This document shows positions 7,077 through 61,009 of a DNA stretch of 64,000 nt, piece after piece. Origin of the DNA: Daucus carota subsp. sativus (Eukaryota; Streptophyta; Magnoliopsida; Apiales; Apiaceae); the NCBI RefSeq assembly GCF_001625215.2, contig NC_030381.2, positions 3,249,131 through 3,313,130 on the forward strand. The letters run 5' to 3'. Position 1 is the stretch's first letter; each line of letters begins with the position of its first letter. A program made the translations under genes and the position numbers. Below the pieces are notes generated by a model that was given only the letters and a program-made list of their open reading frames with translations, ran no database searches and was not told the origin of the DNA.

Positions 7077-7599
7077 TTAGTTTATATGCGATTCTAATAA
7101 GATATGAATTATTATATATTAATATAAAAATTTTATTATCCCATTTTTGATCACTCAATGAAATAACAGTACTATACCACAAAATTTATGGATATATGTA
7201 AACAAGCAAATTAGCTAAAATATCTTTGTTCTTTTCTTTTGTGAAAAGTTTGATATTGCCGAATACAAAATTTTACAACATTATTTGGGAAGATTTACTT
7301 AGATTAACAGTTTTGTTGATTAATTCACAACACCAAAATCATAATAAATTAAGATCATTTTTGACAATTTAAAAAACCTTCCATTTTCTTAATATCGGTT
7401 AAAATCAACATTGCCGTGAATAAAAATATTAAATGATAAATATTTGGCACAGTTAACACAATATACATACGTGCATAAATGAATGTATATACAAATTTCA
7501 CTAGAAGATCATATCCATAGTGGCATCACTCGTTAGCCTGATAGATATCAATACAAGGACTCACACATATTTGAAAAAAAAACTTGCATCTAAGTTGTA

Positions 7600-9470: not shown

Positions 9471-9476
9471 GATTAC

Positions 9477-21620: not shown

Positions 21621-21623
21621 TAC

Positions 21624-23592: not shown

Positions 23593-24021
23593 CACTCGAA
23601 TTTTGGCAAGTTTAATTGCCGATTAAGAAGATCTAAACCTAACTAATCACAATTTTATCAATCTTACTGATTTATTCAAAACATTAATTAAACAAGCCTT
23701 TTCTAAACATACTAAAATATAAATGAGTGAGATACCACTCGAATTTTGGCAAGTTTAATTGCCGATCAAGAAGATCTAAACCTAACCAATCACAATTTTA
23801 TCAATCTTACAGATTTATTCAAAACATTAATTAAACAAGCCTTTTCTAAACATACTAAAATATAAATGAGTGAGATACCACTCGAATTTTGGCAAGTTTA
23901 ATTGCCGATCAAGAAGATCTAAACCTAACCAATCACAATCTTATCAATCTTACTGATTTATTCAAAACATTAATTAAACAAGCCTTTTCTAAACATACTA
24001 AAATATAAATGAGTGAGATAC
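23593..24021. repeat. 143-bp tandem repeat, three units
   Basis: Units start at 23593, 23736 and 23879, each beginning CACTCGAATTTTGGCAAG and ending GAGTGAGATAC. Copy 1 of the large duplication has a single unit at about 11448-11590. The units differ from each other at only a few positions, so the expansion is recent. Confidence 0.92.
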
Positions 24022-35184: not shown

Positions 35185-38100
35185 ATGAGTAGTGAATTAG
35201 GCCGTATATGCCAGGTGGAAACAAGGAGATGGCTTTGGTTGATTGGCCTAGTTTTTGCCTTTGTGTTAATGGCTCAGTATGTGGAACTTCCATATGGTAA
35301 TATTATATCGTCTGTACTTCCCGACGGTAGGACTCAAGTATCTGAAAAGAGCAGTCCCCTGCCTGCTAATCTATCTAGTGACACTAGCAAGTCTGGCAAC
35401 ACTGCAGATCTTGATAACCTGAACTCTACTCGGACACCATTGTCCAATGTGCAAACTGATACTGCTAAAAGTAATGAGGTAAAGAATTTGACCCAAGAAA
35501 GTGACTCTTCCTTGGTATCCAATTCTGCATCAGATAATCCTTCACTGACTACTAAACCAGAAGATAATGTTGTCCTGACACAAGAGAATGAGATTTTAGG
35601 TGACATTCCTATGTCCCCTTCATCTGCATCACCTGTAATGTCTCCAACAGGTGTGAACTTGACGACGAGTGCTGTTATATCTAGTGGTCCAAGCATATCA
35701 CCAGTGAGCAATGAGGCACAGGAAAAAGTTCACAACACTGATGGACCTGGTACTTCAGAAAGCATTAATAACTCTTCTGTGAAGAAAAGGCCGAAGAGTC
35801 AAGAAGTTCCTGTTTTATCTGTATCTGAGATGAATGATATGTTGAAAAAAATTCGTGCTTCATCCAGTTCAACGGTATGCTAATAGTTAGAAGACCAATC
35901 GAGTTTTATAAAAGAACAAATAGTGTACACTTGTTGATGATATATAATGTAAATTTGTTTATGTGGATTTGGTCTGGTTCTGATTTATCTTCTTTTCCCT
36001 GGGTTTTAGGTACCAAGATGGTCATCAGCAGTTGATCAGAGACTACTTGATGCAAAATCACAGATTGAGAGTGCTCCCATCAATAAGAATGACCAAGGCC
36101 TATATTCCCCTCTTTACCGGAATGCATCTATGTTTCGGAGGTATATATCTTAACCAATTTATATTATTTTCTTAACTAGTGAGAATGGCCTGATTATGTA
36201 TGACCAGCAAGTGAAATGTGTAAATAGTCCCCCCTCCCCCCTTCACACTCACGAAGATGTAGATTGTAGACACAAAAGGATAGCAAGGGATGGTTTTGGA
36301 CCAACTGATCCTAAATCAGTTCTAAACATATATATGTGACAAAAGAACATTAGATTAGCATGGTATGAGGATGGTGACGATGTTCATGCATAATGATATT
36401 GAAATCCATCACGTTAGACGGAAAACCATTTTTGAAATTATGAATAGCTTATTCGCTTATTCCTGTAAGTTCAAATTATCTATTTGTATAATTATATGCA
36501 CAAAGATATAGAAGACAACCAGGGCCGTCTCCAGGATTTCGGAGGCCCTAGTATTTTTGAACCAAAATCTAAAATTTGATGAACTAAAATCACGTGAAAA
36601 ATTTGCAGTAGTAAAAATAATTCTCAACTAAGAAACAGAGCATAAAAATGATTGTTACTCTTTATTCTATTACACGGGCCTAAAGTTAAAGTACTGTCCA
36701 TATTCCTAAACTGGTGTAAACGGGAGAAGAATAGATATTATTTTAATAATTTTATTAAATATAATTAATAACTAATAATTATAAATATTAATACTACATG
36801 TATGTATATATATTGGAGGCCCCTGTACTGCTGGAGGCCCCAGGCAAATAACTGGGGAGACTCCCCTTGAAGCCGGCTCTGAAGACAACGAATAGTTACA
36901 TACTGACATTTACCTAGTAAATACAAATATTTTCATTTGGAGTCAGGTATACTATAGAGTATAGATTCATGCACATAGTATTCTCCAGCTGACAAATTTT
37001 GAGAAATTATTTCTTGTGCTATAAGGTTGCCCCGGAAGCAACAACAGTATGTGGTTAGGACGGTTCAACTCTCTGCCTAGTTTTTGAGATTAAGCTACCA
37101 TTTATCAAATCCATGTTTTAATGTTTTCTCCGGTCTTCTCTGATTTTTTACTAGTTTATTTATTAAGGATTTAAGCTAAATAGAAAATTTGCAACTGAGG
37201 CACAAATTAATGGTATCTTAATTGCAAACAATGTTGGTCACGGCACTTGCTTAAATGATTATATTTTGTTATCAAGTGTAGGAGCTATGAATTAATGGAA
37301 CAGACTCTGAAAGTATACATCTACAAGGAAGGCAAAAAACCAATTTTCCATCATCCACCGCCAGTACTCGCTGGAATATACGCTTCTGAGGGATGGTTTA
37401 TGAAGCTACTGCAGGAAAATAAGCAATATGTTACTAAAAACCCAAAAGAAGCACACCTCTTTTACTTGCCTTTCAGTTCACGTACTCTAGAAGAAGCTTT
37501 GTACGTTCCTGATTCTCACAGTCGCACAAACTTGATCAAATACTTGGACAAGTACCTTGACCTGATTGTCGCGAAGTACCCCTTCTGGAACAGAACTGGT
37601 GGAACTGATCACTTTTTTGTTGCCTGCCATGACTGGGTATGTCACATATAGCTTATGTTTCGATGGTAGCAAACCTTTTATATCTGAAGAGTATGCATTG
37701 TCTGTTTTTTGGTGTGAAAACATTACTGCATGTTACATTTAAGATTGCCAAATGCCATCATTGATTACAAGTTTGTTCATTGCAATAACATAAATTGTGA
37801 AGGAGATGCTAACAATATCGTCATATGTCATATTTTCAGGCGCCAGCTGAAACACGGATACGTTTCAACAATTGCATTAAAGCTCTGTGCAATGCCGATA
37901 TCAAAGAAGGCTTTAGATTGGGAAAGGATGTGTCTCTTCCAGAAACAATGGTTCGTTCAAAGAAGAATCCCTTAAGAGACCTTGGAGGCAATGCTCCTCG
38001 CCAACGACCCATACTTGCCTTCTTTGCCGGCCAGATGCATGGATATCTCCGTCCCCTGTTATTACAACAATGGCAAGACAAAGACCCCGACATCAAGATC

Positions 38101-38496
38101 TTCAAAAAACTGCCCAAGTCCAAGAAAAACAGAGTCTACACCGAGTACATGAAAAGTAGCAAGTACTGTTTATGTCCAAAAGGCTATGAAGTCAACAGTC
38201 CTAGAGTAGTGGAAGCAATCTACTTCGAATGTGTGCCTGTAATAATATCCGATAACTTTGTGCCACCATTCTTCGAAATTTTGAACTGGGAGTCATTCGC
38301 TGTTTTCATACAAGAGAAGGATCTTCCAAATCTGAAGAACATTCTTCTCTCGATCTCAGACAGAAGATATCAAATACTGCAACAGAGAGTGAAGCAGGTA
38401 CAACAACATTTTCTTTGGCATTCCCAGCCTATAAAATACGACATATTTCATATGATACTCCACTCTGTGTGGTACAATAGAGTTTTTCAGGGATAG
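35185..38496 (+). CDS. GT47 exostosin-type glycosyltransferase, type II Golgi membrane protein
   Basis: Coding exons 35185-35874, 36010-36140, 37282-37636 and 37840-38496 join in frame to about 610 residues. The N-terminus has a short basic cytoplasmic tail and a membrane anchor around residues 15-36 (WLWLIGLVFAFVLMAQYV). A Ser/Thr-rich stem of about 190 residues follows, then the exostosin domain: VYIYKEGKKPIFH, GGTDHFFVACHDW, LAFFAGQMHG-YLRPLL, and CLCPKGYEVNSPRVVEAIYF-ECVPVIISDNFVPPFFEIL. These are the hallmarks of plant GT47 proteins that act in the Golgi on wall polysaccharides; the acceptor sugar cannot be told from sequence. An upstream in-frame ATG at 35110 lies before the acceptor of this exon, so I prefer 35185. 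The region 34190-35120 probably holds a 5'UTR exon and intron. A hAT element sits in intron 2. No lesions seen. Confidence 0.9.
36520..36881. mobile_element. hAT-type element in intron 2 of the glycosyltransferase gene
   Basis: Termini CAGGGCCGTCTCCAGG and AGCCGGCTCTG are imperfect inverted repeats, flanked by the perfect 8-bp duplication AAGACAAC (36512-36519 and 36882-36889). Non-coding, 362 bp. Confidence 0.82.
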
Positions 38497-41700: not shown

Positions 41701-43906
41701 TTATAGAATCGCCACATTAACACGACTTTGTGTTCCTTGAATTCGTTTCACAAGATGCTTTATGACACTCCTCTTAGTTGTCATTCGATCCCCATATTCA
41801 GACGTACAAACTGTGCGTGGGTTTTCTATTGTCTCAGGCCGACGAGTATAAAAAACAAACCTCTGAAGATTGGGAGCATGTTGAGCGAGGCAAATGGCAA
41901 GCTCTGCAGCAATCGCACATCCAGCATATCCACGATACTCTACAGTCTTAAGTTGCTCGTGGCAACGTATTGCATTTTCTTGAGCATTGTCCGGGGCTAC
42001 AATTTGCTGAGTATGGGACGGCCAAATTCGTCTTGCCTGGTCGTGATACATCAGCTGCAAACCAACATAAATTCATGTCAAACACTGCCTGCCCTGCCAA
42101 CTTATATCAAAACAATCCAACTTATAAGAATTGAGACCATACAATCATTACATGGCAAAATTAATAAAAAAAAGTAAAATTAAATATAAAAGGTGCATTA
42201 AACCTTCAACTTGAATGTGTGCAACAGGGGACACGCCTCTATTAAGGAGGTCGATAGAATAAGGTCATAATCCTGTTGCCAAAGAACTATCTCTAATTGC
42301 TGAAGATTAGCAAAAGTTGGGAATCCACTAAATGCAGAGCGGAGCTACAAAATTAGAAAGGTGCAAAAGCATCAAGATTGTGCACAGAGTACAGAATAAA
42401 CTTATTAGGAATTTAAGAAACCAGCAGAACATATGACATTATAGCAGGTATTGAACTAACCTTGTACCAGTTAACCGACAGTTTTTCAAGCTGAGAAGCC
42501 ATGCCAGATAGGGTATCCGAATCAGGAAGATACGCCCCTACAAAAGTAGCATCCACAAGTGAAGGAATGCTACGATATTCCACATCAATATCAGCCTCAC
42601 CAAATATAAAGGAAGTAAGATTTGGAGCAAATACACGGAGAATTCTGAACTTAAGAGGCCACAAGCTTTGAAAAAACTCCAAGTGTTTCAGCCCAAGGGA
42701 TGACACAACAAGTTCCCGGGAGTGTTCTGAAGAGGCAGCAAGTTTCCGGGAGTGTTCTGAAGAGGCAGCATCATCATCACTGCTCCAGTTGTGAAGCGAC
42801 AGATGTTGAAGATTAAGACAATTAGTTAAAACCCATTGGATTAAAGGTCCTTTTATAATCACTGTGTCCAAGTGAAGAGATTTGAGTGCAGTATTGAGAA
42901 TTAAGGCAGGATTGGTGGAAAAAATGTCGGAAAAATTGATTCTGGGACAATTGTTATGATATTCGTAATCAGGTCCAAAGTTGAGTTCCAAATGGTGAAC
43001 CTCTTTGACAAAGGCATATTGGACCCAATTGTGAATATGAGAGCCATAACAAGTATTGAGGGGCATATGTATTCTGAGGCTATCAAGATATGGAGCTCGG
43101 TTTGCACTCATCACGCGGTTAACCCATTCAACAAACTTGTCCATTTCAGGTTGGGGATAAGATGCTAATTTTAGATATTCAGCAAACTTGTACATTTCAG
43201 GTTGGGGATAAGATGCTAATTTTAGAGAGGCAATAGTTTCAGGATCGATACTGAAATCTAGATCCATGAGGTGAGTCCAAACATGTTTCCACCTCTTGGA
43301 AAGAATGCTGGTTCTCCCTGCTGTTTTCATATCACCAGTTAAGATGAGCACGTAAATCAGCACATCATCAGGTAAACCGCTTATCAAATCAACACCATGA
43401 TCATAGTCTTCAGTGAGATCAGTCTTGTGAAACAGCCTTCTCTTCTTTATACTCACATATGTTTTATATTCCTGACAGACATCTCGGAGACGTGCCCAAG
43501 CATCCATAGCATTAGTAATACGATGCAATTTTATTCGGGCAAGTAAATAGGGGGAGATAGTGGCATAAATCCACGTAAGAAGAAGTGCATCTTGTCGACG
43601 CCAAAGAAAGGTGTCATCATCGTCAACACGTCTAGTGACTATAGTGTTATCAGCAAGTGATGGAGCACGAATGGTTGGATCGATATGATGGAGAAGATTA
43701 TGATCCCGAGCAGCATTGCGGAAAAGAGCAGACCAGGTGCTGTAATCGACTTGAATAAGATCAAGAACAACAGGAATTAGCTTCTTAATGGAGGAGTATT
43801 GCCGAGGAACAAAATTCTTGTCCTCCTTCTTTTTAATTCTTGGTGCATATAACTTTTCATGTATGTAATTAAGGGTGTCCCGGTCTAGAACTTTCGATGC
43901 AGCCAT
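41701..43906 (-). CDS. Gag-like/F-box/LRR-FBD fusion protein, paralog 1
   Basis: Exons 42461-43906, 42204-42344 and 41701-42054 encode about 646 residues, all joins in frame. Residues about 40-150 resemble the Gag region of Copia-type retroelements (UBN2-like): VVLDLIQVDYSTW, ARDHNLLHHI, ALLLTWIYATISPYLL, MDAWARLRDVCQEY. Residues about 172-212 are an F-box: DLISGLPDDVL, RTSILSKRWKHVWTHL. The rest is leucine-rich (HLELNF, LKSLHLDTVII, LNLQHLSLHNW) and ends in an FBD-like region (CPLLHTFKLK, LKTVEYRGYAGC). F-box proteins act as substrate receptors of SCF ubiquitin ligases; here the Gag-like part would be an extra binding or assembly domain (inference). Compared with its paralogs it has two in-frame internal duplications, around residues 228-250 (KLASYPQPEM twice) and around 385-402 (AASSEHSR twice). 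Start ATG is at 43904-43906; a telo-box-like motif lies 38 bp upstream. Confidence 0.85.
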
Positions 43907-43943
43907 GAGAATTCAGACTTGAGAATACTCTGCTTCTGACTTT

Positions 43944-43964
43944 TAGGGTTAGGGATTAGGGTTT
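43944..43964 (-). promoter_or_regulatory. Telo-box-like motif upstream of paralog 1
   Basis: On the minus strand AAACCCTAATCCCTAACCCT lies about 40-60 bp upstream of the ATG. AAACCCTAA telo-box motifs are known in promoters and 5' leaders of plant growth- and ribosome-related genes. Here it may sit in the leader. Confidence 0.5.
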
Positions 43965-46041
43965 ACTTTATATATCCTCGAGCTTGGAGTTTTTGCAAGA
44001 GGGTTATTATGTTTCTTCAATTTTTTTCTTAATAAAATCTTAATATTTATATTTTTGTTGAATTTTTCTTTGAAAAATAACGGGTGAAAATATAAGTATT
44101 GTCTCAAAATACTTACAAAAAGTCAAAATTATTATTATAAGATATTTTAGGTGAGAGAATATTGTTGAATCAGATATCATATCACAGACTTTAAATATTT
44201 TTAAAATGATTTTAAAAATATATTTTATAAAATTTTAGATCAAATGTTATAAAATTTTATTAACTTATATGTGTTCGTACCTGAAATTAAGGCCAGTCCA
44301 TTTTGCAAATTATTCAACTTACATAAAACAGATATTTTTGCAATGCCAATAGGGTCATTATCAATTAATTAACATATCCATTCATTTATGAATATAATAT
44401 AATTTAAAAAGTTAATATCTTGTAAAAATTTGCATGATATGTGTATCAATATTTATCATATAATAATCAACCGTTTTGAAATTTTTTCATAATTTTAATT
44501 TTTTACTATATAATAGTTATGTGATTTTGGGGACCTCTTTGAAATTCGAAAAATCTATTTAAAATATGATATTATTTTGATTCAAATCGTAAATAACTTT
44601 TCATTCTTACAATTTTTTTGAAGAGATCGCAAATATTAAATATTATTTTATAAATTAATATAAAAAAAATTCAATACATAATTCGATACTAAGATATGAT
44701 GAAATCAAAACTGTCAGATTATAATTTTTACGACATTAAGTATAGATAAAATCGAACCAAATCGATTTCGATGATCAGATCAACGCCGCTGTCAACATTA
44801 TTAACCCCATCCCCTCCCCGACTAAATTAGAGACAAAACCGTGTCTGCATTGATTAAGTCAAATTAGAACAAGATTTTCTCTCCAAATTTAAGCCACGTC
44901 GATAGCTTGGGGCCTGTTTAGGACATCTATAAGTTCAACTCAAATTATAGATACATGAGAGTATAGTTGAAATTTGATATTTTAATGAGATTATCAATAT
45001 TTTTTATTTTTTTTTGTTAAGGATTTTTTGATGGTCGGAGTTGCTCTAGAAATTTGGTAATTCACCTGAAAGAGTTGGAAAGAATGGGAGCAGAACACCT
45101 CTACAGTTATACTGCTCTAGTAATGTGTAGCAAAATTTTACGATCCATAAACAAATTTTCTGTTGCAGCAGATTATTTTGCTTATGAAGAAGAAATGCTG
45201 TGCCAATGTATATTGGTTAACAGCTACTGTGTGGCTACTTCCTGGTTATAAGCTTCATGTACTTTGAAGTTAAAATGAATAAAGTACATCTCTTAAACGG
45301 GTAACAATGGTTCTCTGTTTGTATGTCCTTATAAGCATTTATTTTCACCGGAACTTGTGGTCTCTTATATGGTGTATCAGCATTTGTTTTCATCGGAATT
45401 TGTGGTCTCTTATAAGGCTACAAGCTTGGTTTAAGAATCATATGGCGACGCTTCACATCTCAAATTTTAAGCTCCATACTCAAATTTTTTGTTTAAAAGA
45501 ATAATCATGCTCATAAAAGTCTTCTGAAGAAATGTGTGTTCTTAAAGTCATCAAAATCAATCTTGATACACACATTCTAAACAGGTACTGCTTGGATTAC
45601 TCTATCTTAACTAGTCAGACAACTGCAAACTGTTTGAACTTGAAGATCTTTAAGCATTTTTATATTCAGCTCACGTCCAATGTAAAAGATGTGCCTACTT
45701 ATGTTTATAGCAGAAGCTCAATATATGAATAAATCGATCTATAGAGGAGTTCTCTGGTCTAGCCATATAAAAGTGAGGAAAAAGAAAATATATAAGAAAT
45801 GAAGTTGAACAAGTATATTAAACAGAATCCAAAACTATTTTTCTTCATCAGGCAGACAGGTTTGTATCAAATATTCCATAGAAGACGATAATAACTTTTA
45901 ACCCGTAAATAATCAAATCTTAAGTAAATTGCTAGCTGGACCACGTAATATATGAAAAACACTTAAGTTGTGCTAAGCAGAGTAAACAAGTTATATTAAG
46001 CAAAAGTTCCCACAATAACCAACCCCCAACGCCATGATAAA

Positions 46042-48181
46042 TTATAGGATCACTACATTAACACGAATTTGGGTTTCTTGAATTCGTTCCACAAGATCCT
46101 CTAGGACACTCCTCTCAATTCTCATTCGATCCTCATATTCAGAGGTCCAAACTGCGCGTGGGTTTTCTATGGTCTCAGGCCGACGAGTATAAAAAACAAA
46201 CCTCTGAAGATTGGGAGCATGTTGAGCGAGGCAAATGGCAAGCTCTGCAGCAATCGCACATCCAGCATATCCACGATACTCTACAGTCTTAAGTTGCTCG
46301 TGGCAACGTATTGCATTTTCTTGAGCATTGTCCGGGGCTACAATTTGCTGAGGATTGGACGGCGAAATTCGTCTTGCCTGGTCGTGATACATCAGCTGCA
46401 AACCAACATAAATTCATGTCAAACACTGCCTGCCCTGCCAACTTATATCAAAACAATCCAACTTATAAGAATTGAGACCATACAATCATTACATGGCAAA
46501 ATTAATAAAAAAAAGTAAAATTAAATATAAAAGGTGCATTAAACCTTCAACTTGAATGTGTGCAACAGGGGACATGCCTCTATTAAGGAGGTCGATAGAA
46601 TAAGGTCATAATCCTGTTGCCAAAGAACTATCTCTAATTGCTGAAGATTAGGAAAAGTCGGGAATCCACTAAATGCAGAGCGGAGCTACAAAATTAGAAA
46701 GGTGCAAAAGCATCAAGATTGTGCACAAAGTACAGAATAAACTTATTATGAATTTAAGAAACCAGCAGAACATATGACATTATAGAAGGTATTAAACTAA
46801 CCTTGTACCAGTTAACTGACAGTTTTTCAAGCTGAGAAGCCATGCCAGATAGGGTATCTGAATCAGGAAGATACGCCCCTACAAAAGTAGCATCCACAAG
46901 TGAAGGAATGCTACGATATTCCACATCAATATTAGCCTCACCATTTATAAAGGAAGTAAGATTTGGAGCAAATACACGGAGTATTTGGAAGTTAAGAGGC
47001 CACAAGCTTCGGAAAAACTCCAAGTGTTTCAGCTCAGGGGATGACACAACAAGTTCCCGGGAGTGTTCTGAAGAGGCATCATCATTATAATAATCAGTGC
47101 TAGCCCTACAGTCGTGAACCGACAGACGTTGAAGATTCAGACAATTAGTTAAAACCCATTGGATCAAAGGTCCTTCTATAATCACTGTTTCCAAGTGAAG
47201 AGATTTGAGTGCAGTACTGAGAATTAAGGCACGATTGGTGGAAAGGATGTCGGAAAAATTGATTCTGGGATAATTTTTACGATGTCCATAATGATGAGGT
47301 CCAAAGTTGAGTTCCAAATGGTGAACCTCTTTAGCAAAGGCAAATTGGACCCAATTGTGAATATGAGCGCCATAACAAGTACTGAGGGGCATATGTATTC
47401 TGAGGCTATCAAGATATGGAGCTCGGTTTGCACTTATCACGCCGTTAACCCATTCAACAAACTTCTCCATTTCAGGTTGGGGATAAGATGTTAATCTTAA
47501 AGAGGCAATAGTTTCAGGATCGTTCCTGAAATCTAGATCCATGAGGTGAGTCCAAACATGTTTCCACCTCTTCGACAGAATGCTGGTTCTCCCAGCTGTT
47601 TTCATATCACCCATTAGGATCAGCACGTGAATCAGTACATCATCAGGTAAACCGCTTATCAAATCAACACCATGATCATAATCTTCAGCGAGATTAACCT
47701 TGTGAAACAGCCTTCTCTTCTTTTTAATCACATTGGTGTTATATTCTTGACAAATATCTCGGAGATGTGCCCAAGCATCCATAGCACTAGTAATACGATG
47801 CAATTTTATTCGGGCAAGTAAATAGGGGGAAATAGTGGCATAAATCCACGTAAGAAGGACTGCATTTTGTCGACGCCAAGGAATGGTGTCATCATCACCA
47901 ATACGTCTAGTGACTATAGTTTTATCAGCAAGTGATGGAGCAGGAATGGTTGGATCGATATGATGGAGAAGATTATGATCTCGAGCAGCATTGTTGAAAA
48001 CAGAACACCAGGTGTTGTAATTGACTTGAATAAGATCAAGAACAACAGGTATCAACTTCTTGATGGAGGAGTATTGCCGAGGAACAAAATTCATGTCATC
48101 CATCTTTTTAATTCTTGGGACATATAACTTTTCATTGATGTAGGCAAGGGAGTCCAGGTCTAGAACTTTCGATGAAGCCAT
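46042..48181 (-). CDS. Gag-like/F-box/LRR-FBD fusion protein, paralog 2
   Basis: Exons 46802-48181, 46545-46685 and 46042-46395 encode about 624 residues. The layout is as in paralog 1: Gag-like region (VVLDLIQVNYNTW, AVLLTWIYATISPYLL, MDAWAHLRDICQEY), F-box (DLISGLPDDVLIHVL, RTSILSKRWKHVWTHL), leucine-rich repeats and FBD-like tail (LKTVEYRGYAGC). It lacks the two internal duplications of paralog 1. The middle exon is exactly 141 bp in all three paralogs. Replacements against the others are mostly mild, and no stop or frameshift is seen over 1.87 kb of coding sequence, which argues for maintained function or recent duplication. The start is at 48181, conserved with paralogs 1 and 3 (M-x-[AS]-SKVLD). 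Confidence 0.85.
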
Positions 48182-48218
48182 GAGAAATTGAGATTTGAGG
48201 ATACTCTGTTTCTGATTT

Positions 48219-48239
48219 CTAGGGTTAGGGGTTAGGGTT
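48219..48239 (-). promoter_or_regulatory. Telo-box-like motif upstream of paralog 2
   Basis: Minus strand AACCCTAACCCCTAACCCTA about 40-58 bp upstream of the start codon, in the same position as in paralog 1. Confidence 0.45.
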
Positions 48240-48783
48240 CGCTTTATTTATTCGTGCAGCTTGGAGTTCTGGCAAGCGGGTTATAATTTGAATATGATCG
48301 GACTTTAGCTAAATAATTTATAATTTATATTGAATATCATTTGATTTTGGATCATAATTTAAAATCAGGATTGAAAAACATCAAATTTTATATTTTAATT
48401 TTTAATTCTAATTAAATATCACAAAATTTTTGATACATTTTTTTGAGCTATTTCACAATATAAATTTCTTAAAATTTCAATTAGATACAACTATTAGACT
48501 TCCAAAGTTCATATTAAGCTTAAATTGGCCAAGATCCAAATGAGAACAATTTAACGTCAGTTTCTATCAGAACTGTTACTAAATACTCGACTTTTTGACA
48601 CACAATTCTAAATTTTTTTATCGTACAATTAAAATTATTATTTTTATAATTTATTTTTTGAATAAAAATATATAATTAATATTATATTTTAGAAAAAAAT
48701 TTTAAAAATAATAATTTTAGATATACGGTCAAAAGATTTAGAAATATGTACCGAAAAGTCAAACGACCAATATCGAGGGAGTA

Positions 48784-48987
48784 CTCTATCTGTCCTTTTT
48801 AGTTTCATTCTGACTTTTTACACTCAATTTAAGGTACATAAAAATAAAAATTTAATTTATTATTTTTAAAATTTTTTTTTATGAAATTTAGATTTTATCT
48901 TTTAAAAATAATAGGTGAAAATATGTTTTTTAATCACATTAAATACGTGTAAAAGTCAAAATAACAGCTTAAAAAGGGCTGAGGTAG
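48784..48987. mobile_element. Stowaway MITE between paralogs 2 and 3
   Basis: TA, CTCTATCTGTCCTTTTTAG at the left; CTTAAAAAGGGCTGAGGTAG, TA at the right, with matching GACTTTTTACAC / GTGTAAAAGTC arms. A related partial element precedes it (48590-48780, with GACTTTTTGACACACAATTC). Non-coding. Confidence 0.7.
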
Positions 48988-50586
48988 TAACATAATTAAC
49001 GAGAAGACTATTTTTTGCTTCTGTCACGAGTCTAATTGGTACCGTCTAGATACTGATGTGTACAAAATTTTGTAGATAATGACATGTGATGGGTTTTAAT
49101 TGAAATTAGCCCTTATTTATATCAACAAATCTAATTAAAATCCATCATATACAGATTTTCTGTACACAATTTTGTGCTCTAGCACTACTTTTTAAGTTAT
49201 AATATAAGGAAATATTGTTTTTGATAAAATTTGATATTAAAATCTAAGACAGATTTCTGCAAAAACTGAAAATAATTTTTTCCAAAAGTATGGGAGCACT
49301 TATTTTCCCTAAAAGCAACTTCAAAGAAAATATTCAGAAAAACTGCTTTTAGATTTATGAAAGAATTTTTAATCTGTCTTTTTAACAAAAATTGTGTGTT
49401 ATTTGAAACAACAATACCAAACAATGTCATAGAATAGGTCCAGACGTCAAACTGCTTATACTCACACAAATGAGATAAAGAGAAAAATAGAATAATTTAC
49501 GGGCACATTTTACTCTGTTACGAGGGAGGAAATAAATTAAAAAGATTTAGGGATAAAAATAAAATTAAAATACAGGGACAAAGTTCAAAATGATGGGCTT
49601 AATTCCGAATGTTGAATATGCTACCAGAACTGCTGGAATTAAAGTGTGCTCTTTCAGAAAATATAAATGGCATATATTTGATTGTAGAATCAGGCACAAA
49701 ATTTTAATTCGTCTGAGATTTCCTGTATGCACCCAGTTGAATTAGTAGCTCTGAGTTTAATGCGGCTATTTTTCCACCATAAGCTTCATGTATGTTGAAT
49801 TGTAAACGTTTATTTGGTTTAACAGAGAGATGGAGCTCAACACAAAATACATGAGTGTCCTACTGAGTCTGGCATTGTAGATAGCATGATATTTTCATTA
49901 TGTGATTCTGTGATATAATTACATTTTTCTATTTGAAAGTTAAATGAAAAAAGTTCAATATCTACTGAACTTTTTAGATAGCATTGTAGATAGCATGATG
50001 CTTCACCCCATGTTTGTATGTCCTTATCGGCATTTGTTTCCGGAACCTGAGGTCTCTTATATGGAGTCTCTGTTTTCATGTCCTCATCGGCATTTGTTTT
50101 CACTGGAACTTGTGGTCTCTTATAAGGCTACAAACTCGATCCAAGAATCATATCATACGGTGATGCTTCACATCACAAAGATCCCTCATCATAGTCACCG
50201 AGAACTCCATTTTCTTAACTGGATTACTGCATCATGATTTTAAAACCTTCCATCTCTAGCCTTCCAATCAATAATAATGATATGGAAGACAAAGTTCCGA
50301 AAATGAATTTTACAGAAAAAGTAGCAATGCAGGTGTTAACTTTTCCTGAAAGCCTACATGGTCATTATGCTTATGCAGAAGAAAATGTTGCCTACATGGT
50401 CACAGCGGCAAACTGTTTGAATTTGAAGATGTTTAAGCATTTTAATATTCCATGGAAAAAGATAAGTTCAATAATCAAATGTTAAGTAATTGCTAGCTCA
50501 ACTACGTAATACATGAAAAACACTAAAGTTGTGCTAAGCAGAGTAAACAAGCTCCCACAACAACCAATTCCCCAGGCCATTATCAA

Positions 50587-52798
50587 TTATAGAATCACCA
50601 CATTAACACGACTTTTTGTTCCTTGAATTCGTTCCGCAAGATGCTCTATGACACTCCTCTTCATTGTCATTCGATCCTCACATTCAGAGGTACAAACTCT
50701 GCGTGGATTTTCTATTTTCTCAGGCCGACGAGTATAAAAAACAAACCTCTGAAGATTGGGAGCATGTTGAGCGAGGCAAATGGCAAGCTCTGCAGCAATC
50801 GCACATCCAGCATATCCGCGGTACTCCACAGTCTTCAGTTGCTCATGGCAACGTATTGCATTTTCTTGAGCATTGTCCGGGGCTACAATTTGCTGAGTAT
50901 TGGACCGTGAAATTCGCCTTGCCTGGTCGTGATACATCAGCTGCAAACCAACATAAATTCATGTCAAACACTGCCTGTCCTGCCAACTTCATAAGGGAAA
51001 GTGCGAAATTCCAACAATATTAAAAAGTAGAACATAAAAACTGACAACTGTTCAACTTAAATAAAAACAATCCAACTTATAAGAATTGACACCATACAAT
51101 CATTATATGGCAAAATTAATATTCAAAAGTAAAACTGGATATAAAAGGTGCATTAAACCTTCAACTTGAATGTGTGCAACAGGGGACACGCCTCTATTAA
51201 GGAGGTCGATAGAATAAGGTCATAATCCCGTTGCCAAAGAACTATCTCTAATTGCTGAAGATTAACAAAAGTCGGGAATCCACTAAATGCAGAGCGGAGC
51301 TGCATAATTAGAAAGGTGCAAAAGCATCAAGATTGTGCACAAAGTACACAATAAACTTATTATGAATTTAAGAAACCAGCAGAACATATGACATTATAGC
51401 AGGTATTGAACTAACCTTGTCCCAGTTAACCGACAGTTTTTCAAGCTGAGAAGCCATGCGAGATAGGGTATCCGAATGAGGAAGATACCACCCTAAAAAA
51501 GTAGCATCCACAAGTGATGGAATGCTACCATATTCCACATCAATACCATCGGCCTCACCAAATATAAAGGAAGTAAGATTTGGAGCAAATACACGGAGTA
51601 TTTGGAACTTAAGAGGCCACATCCTTCCACAGAACTCCAAGTGTTTCAGCTCAAGGGATGACACAGCAAGTTCCCCGCGGGAGTGTTCTGAATAGGCAGC
51701 ATCATCATCATCAGCGCTGATACTGCAGTTGTGAAGCGACAGACGTTGAAGATTAAGACAATTAGTTAAAACCCATTGGATCAAAGGTCCTTCTATAATC
51801 ACTGTTTCCAAGTGAAGAGATTTGAGTGCAGTAGTGCGAACTAAGGCACGATTGGTGGAAAGGATGTCGGAAAAATTGATTCTGGGATAATTTTTATGAC
51901 GTTCATAATGATCAGGTCCAAAGTTGAGTTCCAAATGGTGAACCTCTTTAACAAAGACAAATTGGACCCAATTTTGAATATGAGGGCCATAACAAGTATT
52001 GAGGGGCATATGTATTCTAAGGCTATCAAGATATGGAGCTCGGTTTGCACTTATCACGCGGTTAACCCATTCAACAAACTTCTCCATTTCAGGTTGGGGA
52101 TAAGATGTTGATCTTAGAGAGGCAATCGTTTCAGGATCGATCTTGAAATCTAGATCCATGAGGTGAGTCCAAACATGTTTCCACCTCTTGGAAAGAATGC
52201 TGGTTCTCCCTGCTGTTTTCATATCACCAGTTAAGATGAGCACGTAAATCAGCACATCATCAGGTAAACCGCTTATCAAATCAACACCAAGATCATAGTC
52301 TTCAGTGAGATCAGTCTTGTGAAACAGCCTTCTCTTCTTTTTACTCACATATGTTTTATATTCCTGACAGACATCTCGGAGACGTGCCCAAGCATCCATA
52401 GCATTAGTAATACGATGCAATTTTATTCGGGCAAGTAAATAGGGGGAAATAGTGGCATAAATCCACGTAAGAAGGACTGCATTTTGTCGACGCCAAGGAA
52501 TGGTGTCATCATCACCAATACGTCTAGTGACTATAGTTTTATCAGCAAGTGATGGAGCAGGAATGGTTGGATCGATATGATGGAGAAGATTATGATCTCG
52601 AGCAGTGTTGCGGAAAAGAGTAGACCAGGTGTTGTAATCGACTTGAATAAGATCAAGAACAACAGGAATTAGCTTCTTAATGGAGGAGTATTGCCGAGGA
52701 ACAAAATTCTTGTCCTCCTTCTTTTTAATTCTTGGTGCATATAACTTTTCATGTATGTAATTAAGGGTGTCCCGGTCTAGAACTTTCGATGCAGTCAT
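50587..52798 (-). CDS. Gag-like/F-box/LRR-FBD fusion protein, paralog 3
   Basis: Exons 51416-52798, 51159-51299 and 50587-50940 encode about 625 residues with the same order of domains: Gag-like (VVLDLIQVDYNTW, AVLLTWIYATISPYLL), F-box (GLPDDVLIYVLILTGDM, RTSILSKRWKHVW), leucine-rich and FBD-like. It is mosaic: the first ~40 residues and the F-box match paralog 1 more closely, while the central IPWRRQNAVLLTWIY matches paralog 2, suggesting gene conversion. The ORF is open throughout. A foldback Mutator-like element (52819-53715) begins 20 bp upstream of the ATG and separates the gene from its ancestral leader and telo-box at about 53743, so its expression may differ from the other two. Confidence 0.85.
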
Positions 52799-52818: not shown

Positions 52819-53715
52819 GAGTCCGGATCTTCTGTCCCCTTAATTGTATCTCCTACTATGTCCCCTTTCTTCTATTGGTTAGTTCTTAACACGTGGCCTA
52901 TGATTTCTCTTATATTCTTTGGTCTCTATTCTTTTTTCATGAGAGTTTAAAATCTGTTAATTTTTTTCAATTTATACAACATATGTTTTAATTATTAAAT
53001 ATTCTTTTCATAGTACATAATCAACTAAAAATATTTTTCATATGATATCATATAGTATATATTTTATTTTGTATTTTTTATATTAAATAGTTAAATAATT
53101 TTTTGAAAACATATTTTTAATATTTTATATTATAAAAGTCAATTTTATATTTTCTCACTAATTTTTTTTACGTAATATATTAACTTCAGTATGTACATTT
53201 TTTTTATCAAAAAATTTAGTAATAATTGCTCTCTCAAATGTACTGGTGAATTTCTTCATATATCAATATATTTGCTTTTTAGGAAAAAAGTCATTATACA
53301 AAAATTTAATTTTAGTAGATTAAATATTAAATAAAAAATATTTCTATATTTTAATATAATCTTTGTTATAAAAGTATTTTTTTTGCTTTTTAATTTAACC
53401 ATATTAAAAATTTATTTTCAAAATTTTATTTAACTATTTAATATAGAAAATATAAAATAAAATATACTATATGATATCATATTAAAAATATTTTTAGTTG
53501 ATTATATACTATATGAAAAGAATATTTTATAATTAAGACATATGTTATATAAATTTGAAAAAAATAAACAGACTTTAAATTCTGATGAAACTATCGAAGA
53601 AAGAATAGAGACGAAAGGATAAAGGAAAATTTATAGATGACGTGTTAAGAACTGACCAATAGAATAAACGGGACATATTAGGGGATACAGATAAGGGGAC
53701 AGAGGATCCTGACTC
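52819..53715. mobile_element. Foldback Mutator-like element in the 5' region of paralog 3
   Basis: Ends GAGTCCGGATCTTCTGTCCC and GGGGACAGAGGATCCTGACTC are inverted repeats that continue nearly to the centre of the 897-bp element (for example TTGGTTAGTTCTTAACACG at 52877 and CGTGTTAAGAACTGACCAA at 53641; ATGATATCATAT on both arms). The 9-bp duplication ATTTGAGAA flanks it (52810-52818 and 53716-53724). The pre-insertion sequence is seen upstream of paralog 1 (CTTGAGAATACTCTGC). No open frame. Confidence 0.9.
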
Positions 53716-53742
53716 ATTTGAGAATACTCTGCTTCTGACTTT

Positions 53743-54701: not shown

Positions 54702-55209
54702 TTTTTTTTGAAATAAAAGGTTGATTTCATTCAATAATCAAGCATCCGACAAGATTGTCTCCAACAAATAGGATGGAGGAGACGAGATAACAACATAACT
54801 ATTAGGTACACATGAAATTTTAGCCAAATCATGAGCTACTTTATTTGCTTGTTTTCTAATAAAATTAACCGAGATATCACCTCGATTTCTAAGCAGATCC
54901 TTGCATTGCTGCACTAAAGTTCCCAGCTCCATGTAGTTCAGGAAGTCCTTGTTTACAGCAGTAACTCCAAGAAGCAAATCACTCTCAACAACTACTTCAG
55001 TCACGCGCAGATCTTCTGCCCATTTCAGTCCTTCATAAATGGCCACTATCTCTGCTTCTACAACACTCGAAGAGCCCTGAAATCTCGATGTCTTCCCTGA
55101 GATATAGTGTCCTTCATGATTCCTAAGCACCATTCCTGTAGCGAAAGAATTCTGGCCTTGCTTAACAGATGCATCCACATTTAGCTTAAGGGTACCCAAC
55201 TTAGCGAAA
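54702..55209 (-). mobile_element. 5'-truncated LINE (RNase H end) with 11-bp target duplication
   Basis: The minus strand ends in a poly-A tail (poly-T at 54702-54710). The 11-bp GATAAATGTTT flanks it (54691-54701 and 55210-55220). The body is the 3' end of a non-LTR element, including an open frame at 54738-55199. Target-primed reverse transcription commonly gives such 5' truncations. Confidence 0.88.
54738..55199 (-). CDS. LINE-derived RNase H-like domain fragment
   Basis: A 153-residue frame with the plant RVT_3/RNase H-like fold: LKLNVDAS (Asp9), VVEAEIVAIYEGLKWA (Glu near 48-50), VVESDLL (Asp74) and ANKVAHDLAK (His123/Asp124). The acidic catalytic set looks preserved. It is the C-terminal part of a LINE polyprotein whose reverse-transcriptase portion was lost on insertion, so it is not a host gene. 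The Met start is probably incidental. Confidence 0.85.
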   Translation of the reverse strand: MGTLKLNVDASVKQGQNSFATGMVLRNHEGHYISGKTSRFQGSSSVVEAEIVAIYEGLKWAEDLRVTEVVVESDLLLGVTAVNKDFLNYMELGTLVQQCKDLLRNRGDISVNFIRKQANKVAHDLAKISCVPNSYVVISSPPSYLLETILSDA

Positions 55210-55224
55210 GATAAATGTTTGTTA

Positions 55225-56990
55225 TCCTATAAAATATGTTTAAGACTTAGGGCTCATTTGATAAATCTTAACAATTAATATATGAATGAATAATATATCT
55301 ACTGGTCTGAATAAGTAAAAAATCTGAACCCTGAATGAATAATATTATTTGATAATTTTTTAAAATATCTGAATGACAAACTTTTTAATAAAAACACAAA
55401 TAAATTAAAAATCATTTGATTAAATTTATATGTAATAACTATAGAAATCTTATAAGTACTTAATATAAAATATATTTAAAATTCTTAAATATGATATAAT
55501 GATTGATTTCAAGGTGGTATATATATGCATGATTCGTTCCGCCAAAGTTTTTGATATGTGCGGGTCAGCACAAGTTAAGATCCGGCCAGCCGCAACAAGT
55601 GCGTCCCCAAACAAGTTGAATGAGATTTTTCGGTCAGCACCTTATTCAGCTCTGTTTAGAAGTAAAAAAATGGGCTCTTAAACTATTGATTTCTATTATT
55701 GACTTGATACATTGAATTTAAAATATCAATTTAAATATGAAATAGAAGTTCAATTCAGATATACTATCATCGTTTATCAATATGATTGACTTTCCAAGCA
55801 TCCGAATTTTTAAACATACTCAGTCACCACACTGGTCTCTTGGTCTTTTGTTGCAACAGCCTGAAGTAAATAACAAAAAGATCTGAAAATTAGAGAATAA
55901 AACTACTGAACTAAAACTTGACGAATTCAACAATGCAATGACGGACTCATGATTTAGTATCTTAATCTGAGGCACCCAAATGGTGCAACTTTGTATCTTC
56001 TAAGCAAAATGCATACAATAACTAAAAATGTCTAAAAAACTGAAGATCTACTTTACAAAGCTAACGGTTTATTTGAGCCGGTACTTGATGTCCAACTTTT
56101 TCCTCCCATTAAAAACTGCAAATAAGAAATCAATTCCTTAAAGTACCAAACAAAGACACCAATAATAATTTCAAAGTATCCTCAATCACATTGGACTCCT
56201 GTGCTAGCTCTGTCTTTCATAAAACTTTAGAAATTAAGCGAGCTAAAAAGATAAAACTTCAGCAGCAATTCCTCTGATTCAGTTTTAAAATTTTCTTACA
56301 CGATTCCAGTCAGAATGAAAGCTTTCAGGGATTTCACTACATTCTTGCTGCAATATCTAAACTTCATTGTGGAAATATCTATGGTAAAATCTTTCTTTTT
56401 TTTTCTTTCAAAAGGCTATCACTTTATGGTTCTTTATCACTGATGGATGTTGAAAAACATGTCACATTTAAATTGATTAAATCTATTAGCCTATCAACTC
56501 AATTAGATAAGGCCTGCAGTTAAAGAATAAAAGAAATAGCCACAAAAAGAATTAAAAATACCTAAAATGACAACATTGGGATTTGAATCTGAAATTGAAT
56601 TTGAAATTCAGAAATAAGCAAAGAATGGCCGGAGAGAGAGTAAAATTTCTTTTGAATTTTAGAATGAAATGGAATGGGTTGTTTTTGGGGGAAGCAGCAG
56701 CTTCTCTTAGAAGCTCAACAAAATTAGTAAACGTAGTGTAGTCAACACCGTATAAATCTCTCGAGTCAAGTGACAGTAAACAGAAATAAGCAAGAATGTA
56801 GAGGGACATTTTGTAGCCAAAAAGGCAACAGGATTTATAAAGTAAAGAGATAAAAATACCATGTTAAGTGTTAACACACACTAATGCTTGTTGTTAAAAA
56901 TGGAAGGAACTCACAAGTCACAACTGAATAGATAAACAAAACAGACCAATGCAATCAATTATTGTAGACACTAACTAAGAAACAAAAACA
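55225..56990. other. No recognised gene
   Basis: AT-rich sequence with short frames only. A 60-codon plus frame at 55499-55681 and an 85-codon minus frame at 56552-56809 match nothing that I know; the latter is next to UTR-like sequence and may be a decayed first exon. Confidence 0.35.
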
Positions 56991-57415: not shown

Positions 57416-57814
57416 TAAGGCCTGTTAGGCTGTAGATCATTTCCTAACAAAAAATTAGTAGTCATAAATTTGTCTTGAAAGCAGTTGTATACTTCATTTG
57501 AGGAGAATAATAGCAACATCTTTCAACATCAACAGCCTACAAACTTCAATTATGAAAACAATTAAATTATTACTAAATCCGATAGCACAGTATGAAGTGG
57601 AGTTCCTAAGACTCTTTAAGAATTCAGACCACTGTTTGCATTGGGGATTTATTTCGGTGAGAATTTTTTCCGGAAGCTTCAATTTATTTATAGTAAGGAT
57701 TCTGATTCAATTAATCTTAGCAAGCCATATCAATAGCTCAAGTAAGATACATCACCAAAGGTGTAAATGGAATTTACACTATGAAATGGAAGCAAGCTTA
57801 CTTGATTGATTGCA

Positions 57815-58085
57815 GAAGGAATCCTGGCAAATGGCAGAACATCACCAATCTCCTTGCAACTGAAATTACTGAGAATGATTGATTTTATAAGGCTGGGACT
57901 TTGGCACTCCTACATTGCTGTCCAAACAAATTTGATATCCTGTAACCAAGCTCAATCGCGTCAAGCACAACTTTCTTCGTATTATTCATAACTTATGGTG
58001 TTAGATCAGGAACTCCTAATCCCAGTCCCATAATTGGCATAGCTTTCGCATCGGCGGAGCTCAAACAAATTTCTGGAATAGGCAT
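57815..58085 (-). pseudogene. Aldo-keto reductase fragment, copy A
   Basis: The minus strand reads IPEICLSSADAKAMPIMGLG, a stop after LTP, KKVVLDAIELGYR, then a jump to TKSIxVSNFSCKEIADVLAF and PSAINQ in other frames. These are the N-terminal strand, the AIELGYRHFDTA helix and the SIGVSNFS segment of plant NADPH-dependent aldo-keto reductases (codeinone reductase-like clade). The catalytic Asp-Tyr-Lys-His region between them is deleted. Non-functional. Confidence 0.72.
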
Positions 58086-59071
58086 CTTTTACTTAAAATT
58101 TCTGTACAACTTAGTATGTCTTGGATTTTCTTTGATTGCATTTAAAAGATCAACAAAACTATATATAAAATGTAAAACTAAAATATCAGGAATCATAACT
58201 AAAGCATGCACCAGGGATAAACTTCAAGATATGTAGTAATTTGGAGTAGATACCTGAATATTTCTTCTAGTTATATTATCATAGTTATTGCAGAGACTGG
58301 ACACCTGCAAGAAGATATAAACATACATGAGCAAACATAATAAAATCTCGATGAAAGATAGCAGTGATAGAGATAAAGTAAGAGAGAAGATTTGCAAATA
58401 GAAGATTCAAATTTCAAACTGAGTAGATATATGAAAGAGCAACAAAAAGGCACACACATCTGCAGGAAAGTTTTTATTTTTCATTGATTTCAAAAATACC
58501 AACTAATTCACTCACTTCTATACGGCACTGCATTCACTGCTACATTAGGTCCACTGCTCCTTTTACTTCTATTACATAATTCAGAATATTCCACAATAAA
58601 AAAGAAAGAAATACTAATTGTACTAAATTAACATGGATAATAATTGTACTAAGCAATATATATTCCCTTTTATTAGGAAAAACCTGTTCATAACCTGCAA
58701 CATACATGATCGATTCAATGTTTTACTTTTGCTCTTTTCAGATGAGAATAAACCAAGACTTGGAAGACGGACATTAGCCTATGAGAGTAAATGATCGGTG
58801 AACAGAAATAAATATAAGCAAGTAGATAATTATTATTAAACGTATAATGTTAAAAACACCTTCTCAAGAACAATGTTTGTGGAACGAAATCTCCCAATAC
58901 AATCATTGCATGCAGCAGCCAATCATTCTTTAGTTATCACATTAGAGTTATCTGTTAAAGGAGGGAAAAAACCAAACCAAATCATATAACTGAATAAAGC
59001 TAGAAAAAAGAATCAAAGCCAAATGCTATAAGGTAAAAAAGAACAGCAACTCCTTAACAGTAGTCTCCCTG

Positions 59072-59944
59072 TAGCAACACGGGTTTGTTTCTATAGCAAC
59101 ACAAGTTTGTTTCTGACAGCAACTCCTTAATTGGGCCATATGACCTCAATGCAATTTCTTCTGGAAAGTGTGTTCTAAAGAAACTTGCCACAGATTTTCT
59201 TGGACCAATTTTCTGTGCCAACACTCTGTGATTTACACTCTTGAATTTGTCGTTGGTTGTGAGCTGCACAGATACTGAAATTCATCATCTTATAACATGA
59301 AGCATTGCAGATTTCCAATTTATGTCGCAGAACTAAGTAGGATACTACTTCTTTAACAGTAACAAATGACATGATAGAGTGACGAAGGAAGCCTTACTTG
59401 TAAGAAGTCACCAATGTTGACGATTAAAGCTCCACGAACAGGAGAAACATCGACCCACTGGTTCTTATGCATGACTTGGACTCTTGGAGGCCGCCAATAT
59501 GATTTTGCAAAAGTATGGTAATGAAACCACTATCAGAATGGTTGCCTGTAGCTAGAGTAAGTTCGGGTTCAGGGCATGAAGGATAGTAGTGACCAATTCG
59601 GAAAAGCCCTTCAGCACAATCCATATCTTTCAAGTAATTGGGAGCAAGTCCAAGAGCCTCAGAGATCAGTTCCAGCACACTAATCCCCATGTCAATTATG
59701 TACTTTGAATAAGTAAATATAACATCTCTGAAATTTAGAGTATCACAAAAATGTAAAATAAGTGCGGATTTTGCAGCTTTGTGATGCTCAATATCAGAAA
59801 CAAACCATTTATATGGAATAATTGTTCGCATCAGGCAATAAAATTATATAAGATCTACTGTACATATAGCCAAGAACAGCGAAAACAGAGTTTAAAGTTG
59901 TGAATACCTGCACACCGCTGGCAAATCAGGCGAAGTCGATTGTC
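59072..59944 (-). pseudogene. 2-oxoglutarate/Fe(II) dioxygenase pseudogene (ACC-oxidase-homolog-like)
   Basis: Minus-strand exons: 59908-59944 (SPDLPAVC), 59398-59727 ([48 protein letters not shown]) and about 59040-59263 (LTTNDKFKSVNHRVLAQ, GPRKSVASFF, YGPIKELLSE). The Fe ligands (HSD and the later NHR histidine) and the 2-oxoglutarate RxS motif are all visible, and the splice phases fit. It is broken by an 8-bp insertion after GGLQ (about 59480, where CTCCAAG is followed by AGTCCAAG) and by a 22-bp tandem duplication near the C-terminus (59072-59093 and 59094-59115). The N-terminal exon was not found. The family is the DOXC class with many specialised-metabolism members. Confidence 0.82.
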
Positions 59945-60489
59945 CTAAGAAGGAGATAACAACATTGGGTAATTGTAATTAATCAAGCAGTTGGAAGACG
60001 CAAGAATTTATCATATTCAACCACAAGCAAATCGATTACTCACCCTTTCCATGTTTGTTTGAAGAACCAGCAACAAAAGAAACAGGAGACCCCTCTCTAA
60101 CTTGATAAAACTACCACAGACAAAGAAAAAATTGAGGGAAAAATCTTCTTTAGACAACAATCATGTAAAAGAACATAGTAATATAAAGAGAAACATAGGT
60201 AAAATCAGAATATAAACTAACCTCATCCACTGAATGGGGAAGGGATTCCTACACAATCAGTGTATAAAACTGTATGAATGAAGAAAAAAGAACTCTTTGA
60301 GGGTTTCAATTCAAATTCAAATGATATTGTGATATAAGAAATATACAATATTGGTGTATAGAAGAATCTAAGCAATATTAAATTATCAAATGATATTCTG
60401 ATTCAATTGATCTTAGCAAGCCATATCAATAGCTCAAGTAAGATACTTCACCAAAGGTGTAAATGGAATTTACACTATGAAATGGAAGC

Positions 60490-60785
60490 AAGCTTACTTG
60501 ATTGATTGCAGAAGGAATCCTGGAAAATGCCAGAACATCAGCAATCTCCTTGCAACTGAAATTACTGACAATGATTGATTTTGTAAGGCCGGGACTTTGG
60601 CCCTCCTACATTGCTGTCCAAACAGATTTGACATTCTGTAACCAAGCTCAATCGCGTCAAGCACAACCTTCTTCATATTATTCATAACTTATGGTGTTAG
60701 ATCAGGAACTCCTAATCCCAGTCCCATAATTGGCATAGCTTTCGCATCTCCGGAGCTCACACAAAATTCTGGAATAGCTATCTTT
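60490..60785 (-). pseudogene. Aldo-keto reductase fragment, copy B
   Basis: The same arrangement as copy A: IPEFCVSSGDAKAMPIMGLG, the identical stop after LTP, NMKKVVLDAIELGYR, then the joined TKSI-VSNFSCKEIADVLAF-SRIPSAINQ end with a GTAAGC-like donor. It shares the internal deletion with copy A, so the damage predates the duplication. Confidence 0.72.
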
Positions 60786-61009
60786 TACTTAAAATTTCTG
60801 TACAACTTAGTATGTCTTGGATTTTCTTTGATTGCATTTAAAAGATCAACAGAACTATATATAAAATGTAAAACTAAAATATCAGGAATCATAACTAAAG
60901 CATGCACCAGGGATAAACTTAAAGATATGTAGTAACTTGGAGTAGATACCTTAGACCTGTGTATTTAAAGACCACATTAGTACTAAGCTCAGGGATAACC
61001 AGTTCGATT

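Follow-up and report, generated by a model that had tools for sequence, protein, structure and literature searches.

The window, a stretch of 64,000 bases of the carrot genome (C1:3249131-3313130), contains three tandem genes on the minus strand, termed g1, g2, and g3 here, in which a domain homologous to the Gag protein of Copia retrotransposons is followed by an F-box. An earlier note on this DNA had claimed a tandem family of Gag-like/F-box fusion proteins at 41701-52798, and the span proved to be exact, with the stop of g1 at 41701 and the ATG of g3 at 52798. The three paralogs are intact, and the exon 1 identity to g3 is 85% for g2 and 88% for g1. Their single-exon open frames extend over 42413-43906 (497 codons), 46754-48181 (475), and 51368-52798 (476), and two GT..AG introns were predicted in each gene, the first of 116 bases and the second of 149 (g1), 149 (g2), or 218 bases (g3), the splicing of these three genes, in which alone splice sites were examined, being modelled from sequence. 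Exon 1, up to the GT donor, comprises 460-482 codons, and the predicted spliced proteins are 646 (g1), 624 (g2), and 625 (g3) residues long, so that the claim of more than 600 open codons holds for the product spliced over two introns and fails for a single exon. The features are listed in Table 1.

Table 1. Features of the three fusion genes and of the g3 leader, in window coordinates.
Feature	Position	Strand	Basis
g1 exon 3 (FBD part and stop)	41701..42054	-	GT..AG splice model
g1 exon 2	42204..42344	-	GT..AG splice model
g1 exon 1 (482 codons; Gag-like domain, F-box, LRR part)	42461..43906	-	Open frame and GT donor
g1 F-box, residues 175-213	43268..43384	-	Pfam F-box E 0.016, below cut-off
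g1 Copia capsid N-terminal-like domain, residues 38-148	43463..43795	-	Sequence homology
g2 exon 3 (FBD part and stop)	46042..46395	-	Splice model
g2 exon 2	46545..46685	-	Splice model
g2 exon 1 (460 codons)	46802..48181	-	Open frame and splice model
g2 F-box, residues 175-213	47543..47659	-	Pfam F-box E 0.00038, 20.7 bits, cut-off 20.5
g2 Copia capsid N-terminal-like domain, residues 38-148	47738..48070	-	Pfam Retrotran_gag_2 E 0.069, below cut-off; sequence homology
g3 exon 3 (FBD part and stop)	50587..50940	-	Splice model; FBD E 0.0045 at 50737-50847
g3 exon 2	51159..51299	-	Splice model
g3 exon 1 (461 codons)	51416..52798	-	Open frame and splice model
g3 F-box, residues 175-213	52160..52276	-	Pfam F-box E 0.0086, below cut-off
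g3 Copia capsid N-terminal-like domain, residues 38-148	52355..52687	-	Whole-genome Copia Gag match, hhalign, AlphaFold2 model and fold match
Inverted-repeat (hairpin) element, ~0.9 kb, apparently splitting g3 leader	52819..53715		Arms 52819-52938 / 53596-53715, 120 bases, 83% complementary

For the window genes, Pfam by itself would have left the Gag-like claim undecided. Retrotran_gag_2 was matched at residues 38-153 in g2 only (13.0 bits vs a cut-off of 27 bits), with no match in g1 or g3, and among five further family proteins scanned it was found below the same cut-off in the sister gene at 3.316 Mb (E 0.046, 13.6 bits) and in none of the other four. A whole-genome search (441,086,747 bases, 11 contigs) with the g3 domain gave at least 25 matches at E <= 0.001, of which 14 are in F-box genes of the family, one is in a broken C9 locus of the family, and 10 are in other frames. 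Pfam scans of four of these 10 frames (L036, L035, L040, and L038) revealed Retrotran_gag_2 in each (E 1.2e-12 to 1.7e-25); in L036, whose Gag is 45% identical to the g3 domain (E 2.4e-14), it lies beside RVT_2 (E 6.4e-68) in a 1437-codon open frame. Furthermore, a profile comparison by hhalign of 10 family domains with 16 Copia-type Gag pieces gave a probability of 99.4 and an E of 5.5e-22 over 100 columns, and both core tryptophans are common to the family domains and Copia Gag over ~100 homologous residues. The 16 pieces were chosen from 23 fetched Copia-type loci (L035-L042 and L044-L058), L037, L039, L041, L042, L055, L056, and L058 being excluded because each was a near-copy, broken, or weak; L058 had no match at E <= 10 to the family profile, and the pieces of L044-L058 were chosen by their match to the L036 Gag, with no separate Pfam check.

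The fold of the domain was predicted by AlphaFold2 from an alignment of 26 rows, the three window rows alone having given a predicted local distance difference test score (pLDDT) of 40. The best solved-fold match of the g3 domain model was a Copia capsid, of which it covers the first ~100 residues, indicating a predicted capsid N-terminal fold. The earlier note had made a profile or structural match to Copia Gag one test of its claim, and both were found; chance resemblance to Gag was ruled out by the E-values and the fold. The homology stops near residue 148 and the F-box starts at 175, with neither a capsid C-terminal half nor a polymerase downstream; therefore, this is a Gag-derived domain and not a Gag gene, and what had been called a UBN2-type Gag region is narrowed to a capsid N-terminal half derived from Copia Gag, a full UBN2/Gag not being present and the Pfam model remaining below its cut-off. 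A sequence search of the PDB with the three-row window profile gave 0 matches, two scans of a viral sequence collection with the domain revealed no relative, and a fold search of BFVD gave nothing at E <= 0.001, the top-ranked entry (probability 0.99, E 0.087) being an uncharacterised giant-virus protein. A DNA pattern for Copia reverse transcriptase was found 0 times in the viral collection and 0 times in the window at <=3 mismatches; its occurrences on 15 contigs of prokaryote genomes (L001-L015) were not used further.

As had been claimed, the Gag-like part and the F-box are in one uninterrupted exon, and the ~26 residues measured between them agree with the proposed spacing of 20-30. The F-box, leucine-rich repeat (LRR), and FBD parts follow one another in the order that had been read after the Gag-like part, the candidate FBD being in exon 3 and not in exon 1. 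The matches beyond the F-box were weak, as the LRR models were in the window exon-1 frames and the FBD model in g3 exon 3, the only exon 3 scanned (17.3 bits vs a cut-off of 22). An F-box-type Pfam match was present in three of four further family exon-1 proteins scanned. In this order of parts and in having three exons, the genes are similar to those of plant F-box/LRR/FBD proteins of the LRR_At5g56370 and LRR_At1g61320 type. Such proteins typically start with the F-box, whereas a 170-residue capsid-containing part precedes it here.

The fusion is not confined to the window. At least 10 loci carry a Gag part together with the F-box/LRR part, with 14 Gag-like domains in total: five are in tandem (g1-g3 and the genes at 3.316 and 3.331 Mb), one is at 1.809 Mb, three are near 55.6-55.8 Mb, and one is on C3 at 60.96 Mb. 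Exons 2 and 3 were matched at all 10, and the frames are open at all 10, for C3 only with an assumed intron. Two consecutive Gag domains, A and B, precede the F-box at four loci (the three near 55.6-55.8 Mb and C3), in contrast to one in the window genes. The two domains of the C3 gene are in different frames, and their spacer holds a phase-0 GT..AG intron candidate, identified by eye; the view of this locus as a broken gene was set aside, since the candidate is taken for an intron. Near F-box/LRR relatives without the Gag part were only the stop-containing C9 fragments L032 and L033, all other F-box matches being at E 4e-9 or worse. As for the broken relatives on C9, L032 (13.57 Mb) and L033 (13.92 Mb) keep LRR pieces only, and L034 (43.79 Mb) keeps Gag and LRR pieces.

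In a Gag tree of 26 domains, which included 10 family rows from eight loci and left out the four domains of two near-identical 55-Mb copies, the family domains formed one clade (support 98/97); the tool warned of long branches meeting, and the Copia sister group is not settled by this tree. Separate capture per gene was set aside on this clade, although a Copia lineage since lost could conceivably have been captured repeatedly. The A domains of C1 (55 Mb) and C3 were paired in the tree, and likewise the B domains; therefore, the domain doubling preceded the C1-C3 duplication. The Gag and F-box trees concur on the tandem group and on the grouping of the 55-Mb genes with the C3 gene (F55+FC3), and the F-box tree does not fix the position of the 1.8-Mb gene. 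In the F-box part, the tandem, 1.8-Mb, and 55-Mb groups differ by a synonymous divergence (dS) of 0.49-0.60, and at a substitution rate of 7e-9 per site and year these groups would have split about 35-43 million years ago. The Gag-part dS for such deep pairs is higher, 0.71-1.17; in the deep pairs of L027, L028, and L031, it is ~1.5 to 2 times the F-box-part dS. The genes at 3.316 and 3.331 Mb (L024 and L025) have F-box/LRR parts that are identical as used in the tree and Gag parts with a dS of 0.11, a contrast that suggests gene conversion inside the cluster.

To what extent the Gag part is under selection was evaluated by the ratio of nonsynonymous to synonymous divergence (dN/dS) and by the corresponding ratio of observed differences (pN/pS). 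In the trio, the introns, with 93-100% identity, equal exon 1 (91-95%) in conservation; therefore, only codon-level tests count as evidence of selection. Likewise, the identity of the tandem genes drops from 90-96% over the first 480 bases to 49-75% over the 300 bases preceding the ATG, and this drop would show where the duplicated unit ends no less than it shows selection. The Gag-part dN/dS was 0.41-0.45 between the window genes and the 1.8-Mb gene, 0.22-0.24 between A and B domains, 0.40 for the A domains of the 55-Mb and C3 genes (F55A-FC3A), and 0.30-0.43 for other deep pairs, with pN/pS intervals below 1 in all of these comparisons. Within the tandem group, it was 0.35 for g3-g4 and 0.37 for g3-g5, with intervals exceeding 1, and 0.30 for g4-g5, whose interval ended at 0.94. 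Four disjoint post-fusion pairs pooled gave a ratio of 0.52 (Fisher p 0.0005), and five choices of four such pairs gave pooled pN/pS values of 0.48-0.53 (p 0.0009 to 0.00016). The ratio below 1 that had been expected for the Gag part was thus obtained in the wider family and in the pooled pairs and was not established by the window trio, in which it was 0.44-0.68 with intervals including 1. For comparison, the trio F-box gave 0.09 in two pairs, with upper limits below 0.4, and was unchanged from g1 to g3, and the trio C-terminal part gave 0.40-0.96. As judged at the codon level, the family Gag-like domains tested are one clade under purifying selection, as would be the case for a Gag-derived host gene kept by selection, and it is nearly certain that the Gag-F-box fusion and its selection are together real.

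These results bear on two accounts in which the Gag part does nothing of note. In one, it would be an untranslated upstream remnant, the real protein beginning at or near the F-box, and the sister genes at 3.316 and 3.331 Mb do have a Met just before the F-box. In g1-g3, however, there is no ATG from residue 134 to the F-box, and a start at residue 193 would break the F-box; the purifying selection is at the codon level, and the gaps inside exon 1 are in threes among the genes compared (of lengths divisible by three in the trio, and of 6 bases when all five tandem genes are compared over their first 480 bases), so that this account is very improbable, and the Gag part is most probably translated and under selection. 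In the other, the Gag piece was fused by accident and is translated and tolerated as a passenger, contributing at most to solubility or localisation. The trio, in which the Gag-part dN/dS is indistinguishable from 1 in all three pairs (single-pair p 0.076, 0.33, and 0.071), would agree with this, as would the loop lengths deviating in two of 10 family rows and the 6-base deletion in the 3.331-Mb gene; against it are the pooled pairs, significant in all five choices, and the open frames at the 10 loci, and we regard it as unlikely.

Several other features were observed around the three genes. The hairpin element is 21 bases upstream of the g3 ATG, and the family leader motif picks up again at 53718-53737; the element may disturb g3 expression. 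A 162-codon open frame on the minus strand at 54738-55226, 2 kb upstream of g3, encodes an RNase H-like RVT_3 domain (E 2e-21). The window also contains a 4.5-kb direct duplication, 98% identical (7081-11589 and 19217-23736), a 557-base direct repeat, 96% identical (57699-58255 and 60395-60951), flanking a 2OG-Fe(II) oxygenase-like frame (59424-59843), and Auxin_canalis-type and exostosin GT47 gene pieces (30139-31653 and 37813-38496).

Regarding function, it may be possible that the capsid-derived domain binds Copia Gag and thereby brings it to a SKP1-CUL1-F-box (SCF) ubiquitin ligase, a proposal that we favour while rating it as somewhat short of probable. The F-box would dock on SKP1/CUL1, and the capsid-derived domain would bind Copia Gag by the same contacts that join Gag subunits to one another; Gag or assembling particles would then be ubiquitinated and removed, or their assembly would be poisoned, and the LRR/FBD part could engage another partner or determine specificity. 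The protein would act in restriction like a capsid-recognising factor, but be built as an SCF receptor. TRIM5 couples capsid recognition to a ubiquitin ligase, although it is a RING ligase and its recognition domain is not made from Gag, and Fv1 of mammals is a Gag-derived capsid restriction factor without a ligase part; here, the Gag-derived domain and a ligase-type part would be combined in one protein. In favour of Gag as the target, the family has been retained and expanded, with its domain doubled at four loci, and the Gag type nearest to it belongs to an element that moved recently: 186-base direct repeats flanking the L036 open frame are 100% identical. The corresponding repeats of L037 are 188 bases long and 98.9% identical, and no repeat pair > 80 bases was found in the stretches examined for L040 and L035. 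The carrot Copia elements Alex1 and Alex3 (DcAle) are described as making new insertions in callus in passages of a published study (PMC9324142).

A number of observations weigh against this proposal. The nearest Copia Gag is only ~45% identical to the domain, so that co-assembly in the present day is not assured, and the capsid C-terminal half, which the yeast factors use instead according to parts of the report on them (PMC10951436), is missing from the fusion proteins. In the trio, the Gag-part dN/dS (0.53, 0.68, and 0.44) did not depart from 1, and the LRR part gave 0.85-0.97, which would fit a choice of substrate by the LRR part; in the B domains of the 55-Mb and C3 genes (F55B-FC3B), the Gag-part ratio was 0.67, with an interval up to 1.68 (single-pair p 0.29, compared with 0.007 for the A domains). 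The F-box scores are weak, g2 alone in the trio reaching the Pfam cut-off, and L028, the one 55-Mb copy scanned with Pfam, gave no F-box match up to E 10, for which reason F-box function in that copy is doubtful.

The same data can be read without a retroelement target. The capsid-derived domain, single or in a tandem pair, could be a self-association module that clusters the SCF receptor, with the LRR/FBD part picking an ordinary host substrate. Capsid folds self-associate by nature, the domain is in tandem at four loci, and the fast evolution of the LRR part in the trio is as expected when it meets a changing partner; yet only the N-terminal half is kept, and self-association alone leaves the choice of a Copia capsid unexplained, which makes this explanation rather unlikely, if a serious one. 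The domain could also be an integrated decoy that baits a pathogen effector or another foreign protein with an affinity for Gag-like host proteins, after which the F-box protein would signal or degrade the bound protein. Tandem clusters such as this one are common among immune genes. Passages of PMC4759884 report Copia Gag (UBN2) integrated in plant nucleotide-binding leucine-rich repeat receptors (NLRs) of four species of four families and include an Arabidopsis protein with UBN2_2 and a zinc knuckle among the interactors of the ATR1 effector group. However, the fusion proteins have no NLR part, no Pfam match to NB-ARC being found in the three window exon-1 frames, and the authors of PMC4759884, in the passages concerned, state that they lack evidence on a role of transposon activity; annotation errors may be among such fusions, and we consider a decoy function quite unlikely.

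Compared with known systems, the domain is similar to Copia Gag (Retrotran_gag_2/UBN2; the Gags of L036, L035, L040, and L038 in the same genome, and the Drosophila capsids 8vvw and 8s41) over ~100 residues and in its capsid fold, and unlike it in consisting of the N-terminal half only, in its fusion to an F-box, and in scoring below the Pfam cut-off. The yeast protein Drt2, a domesticated Ty1' Gag whose structure (9rxy) was among the fold-search matches of the domain model, restricts Ty1' and associates with its particles, as stated in parts of PMC10951436; according to these, Drt2 is likewise a host gene from a piece of Copia-superfamily (Pseudoviridae) Gag, but it is the capsid C-terminal half without a ligase part and with restriction shown, whereas here the N-terminal half is fused to an F-box and its restriction function is putative. 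In the plant NLRs with integrated UBN2/Gag, as presented in passages of PMC4759884 and PMC8832786, Copia Gag is likewise fused to an often-defensive class of host proteins; the present family differs in being of F-box proteins and in that a clade with selection was demonstrated. Passages of a review on Arabidopsis name domesticated transposases and no domesticated Gag. No description of an F-box-Gag fusion was found in the literature searched, which was without subscription journals or protein databases, and automatic annotations may list such proteins. Domesticated Gag and integrated domains being already known, the fusion to an F-box is a variant that we did not find described and is not categorically new.

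On a broader and more tentative view, possible though less than probable, this lineage would have built a protein-level immunity, in which the receptor enters the growing particle through a stolen Copia capsid domain, single or in tandem, and has the particle degraded, and which spread by duplication. The control of retrotransposons in plants is thought to rely mostly on DNA methylation and small RNAs. If the proposal is true, a selected capsid-ligase fusion would point to a post-translational, particle-aimed control, as in yeast and mammals. If the dS-based age is right, the fusion is expected in other Apiaceae, and the callus-mobile Copia elements, as described in passages of PMC9324142, make carrot a direct test system. 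Should the target be something other than Gag, the retention of a capsid fold as a functional part of F-box proteins, with doubling in four loci, would still represent a new use of this fold.

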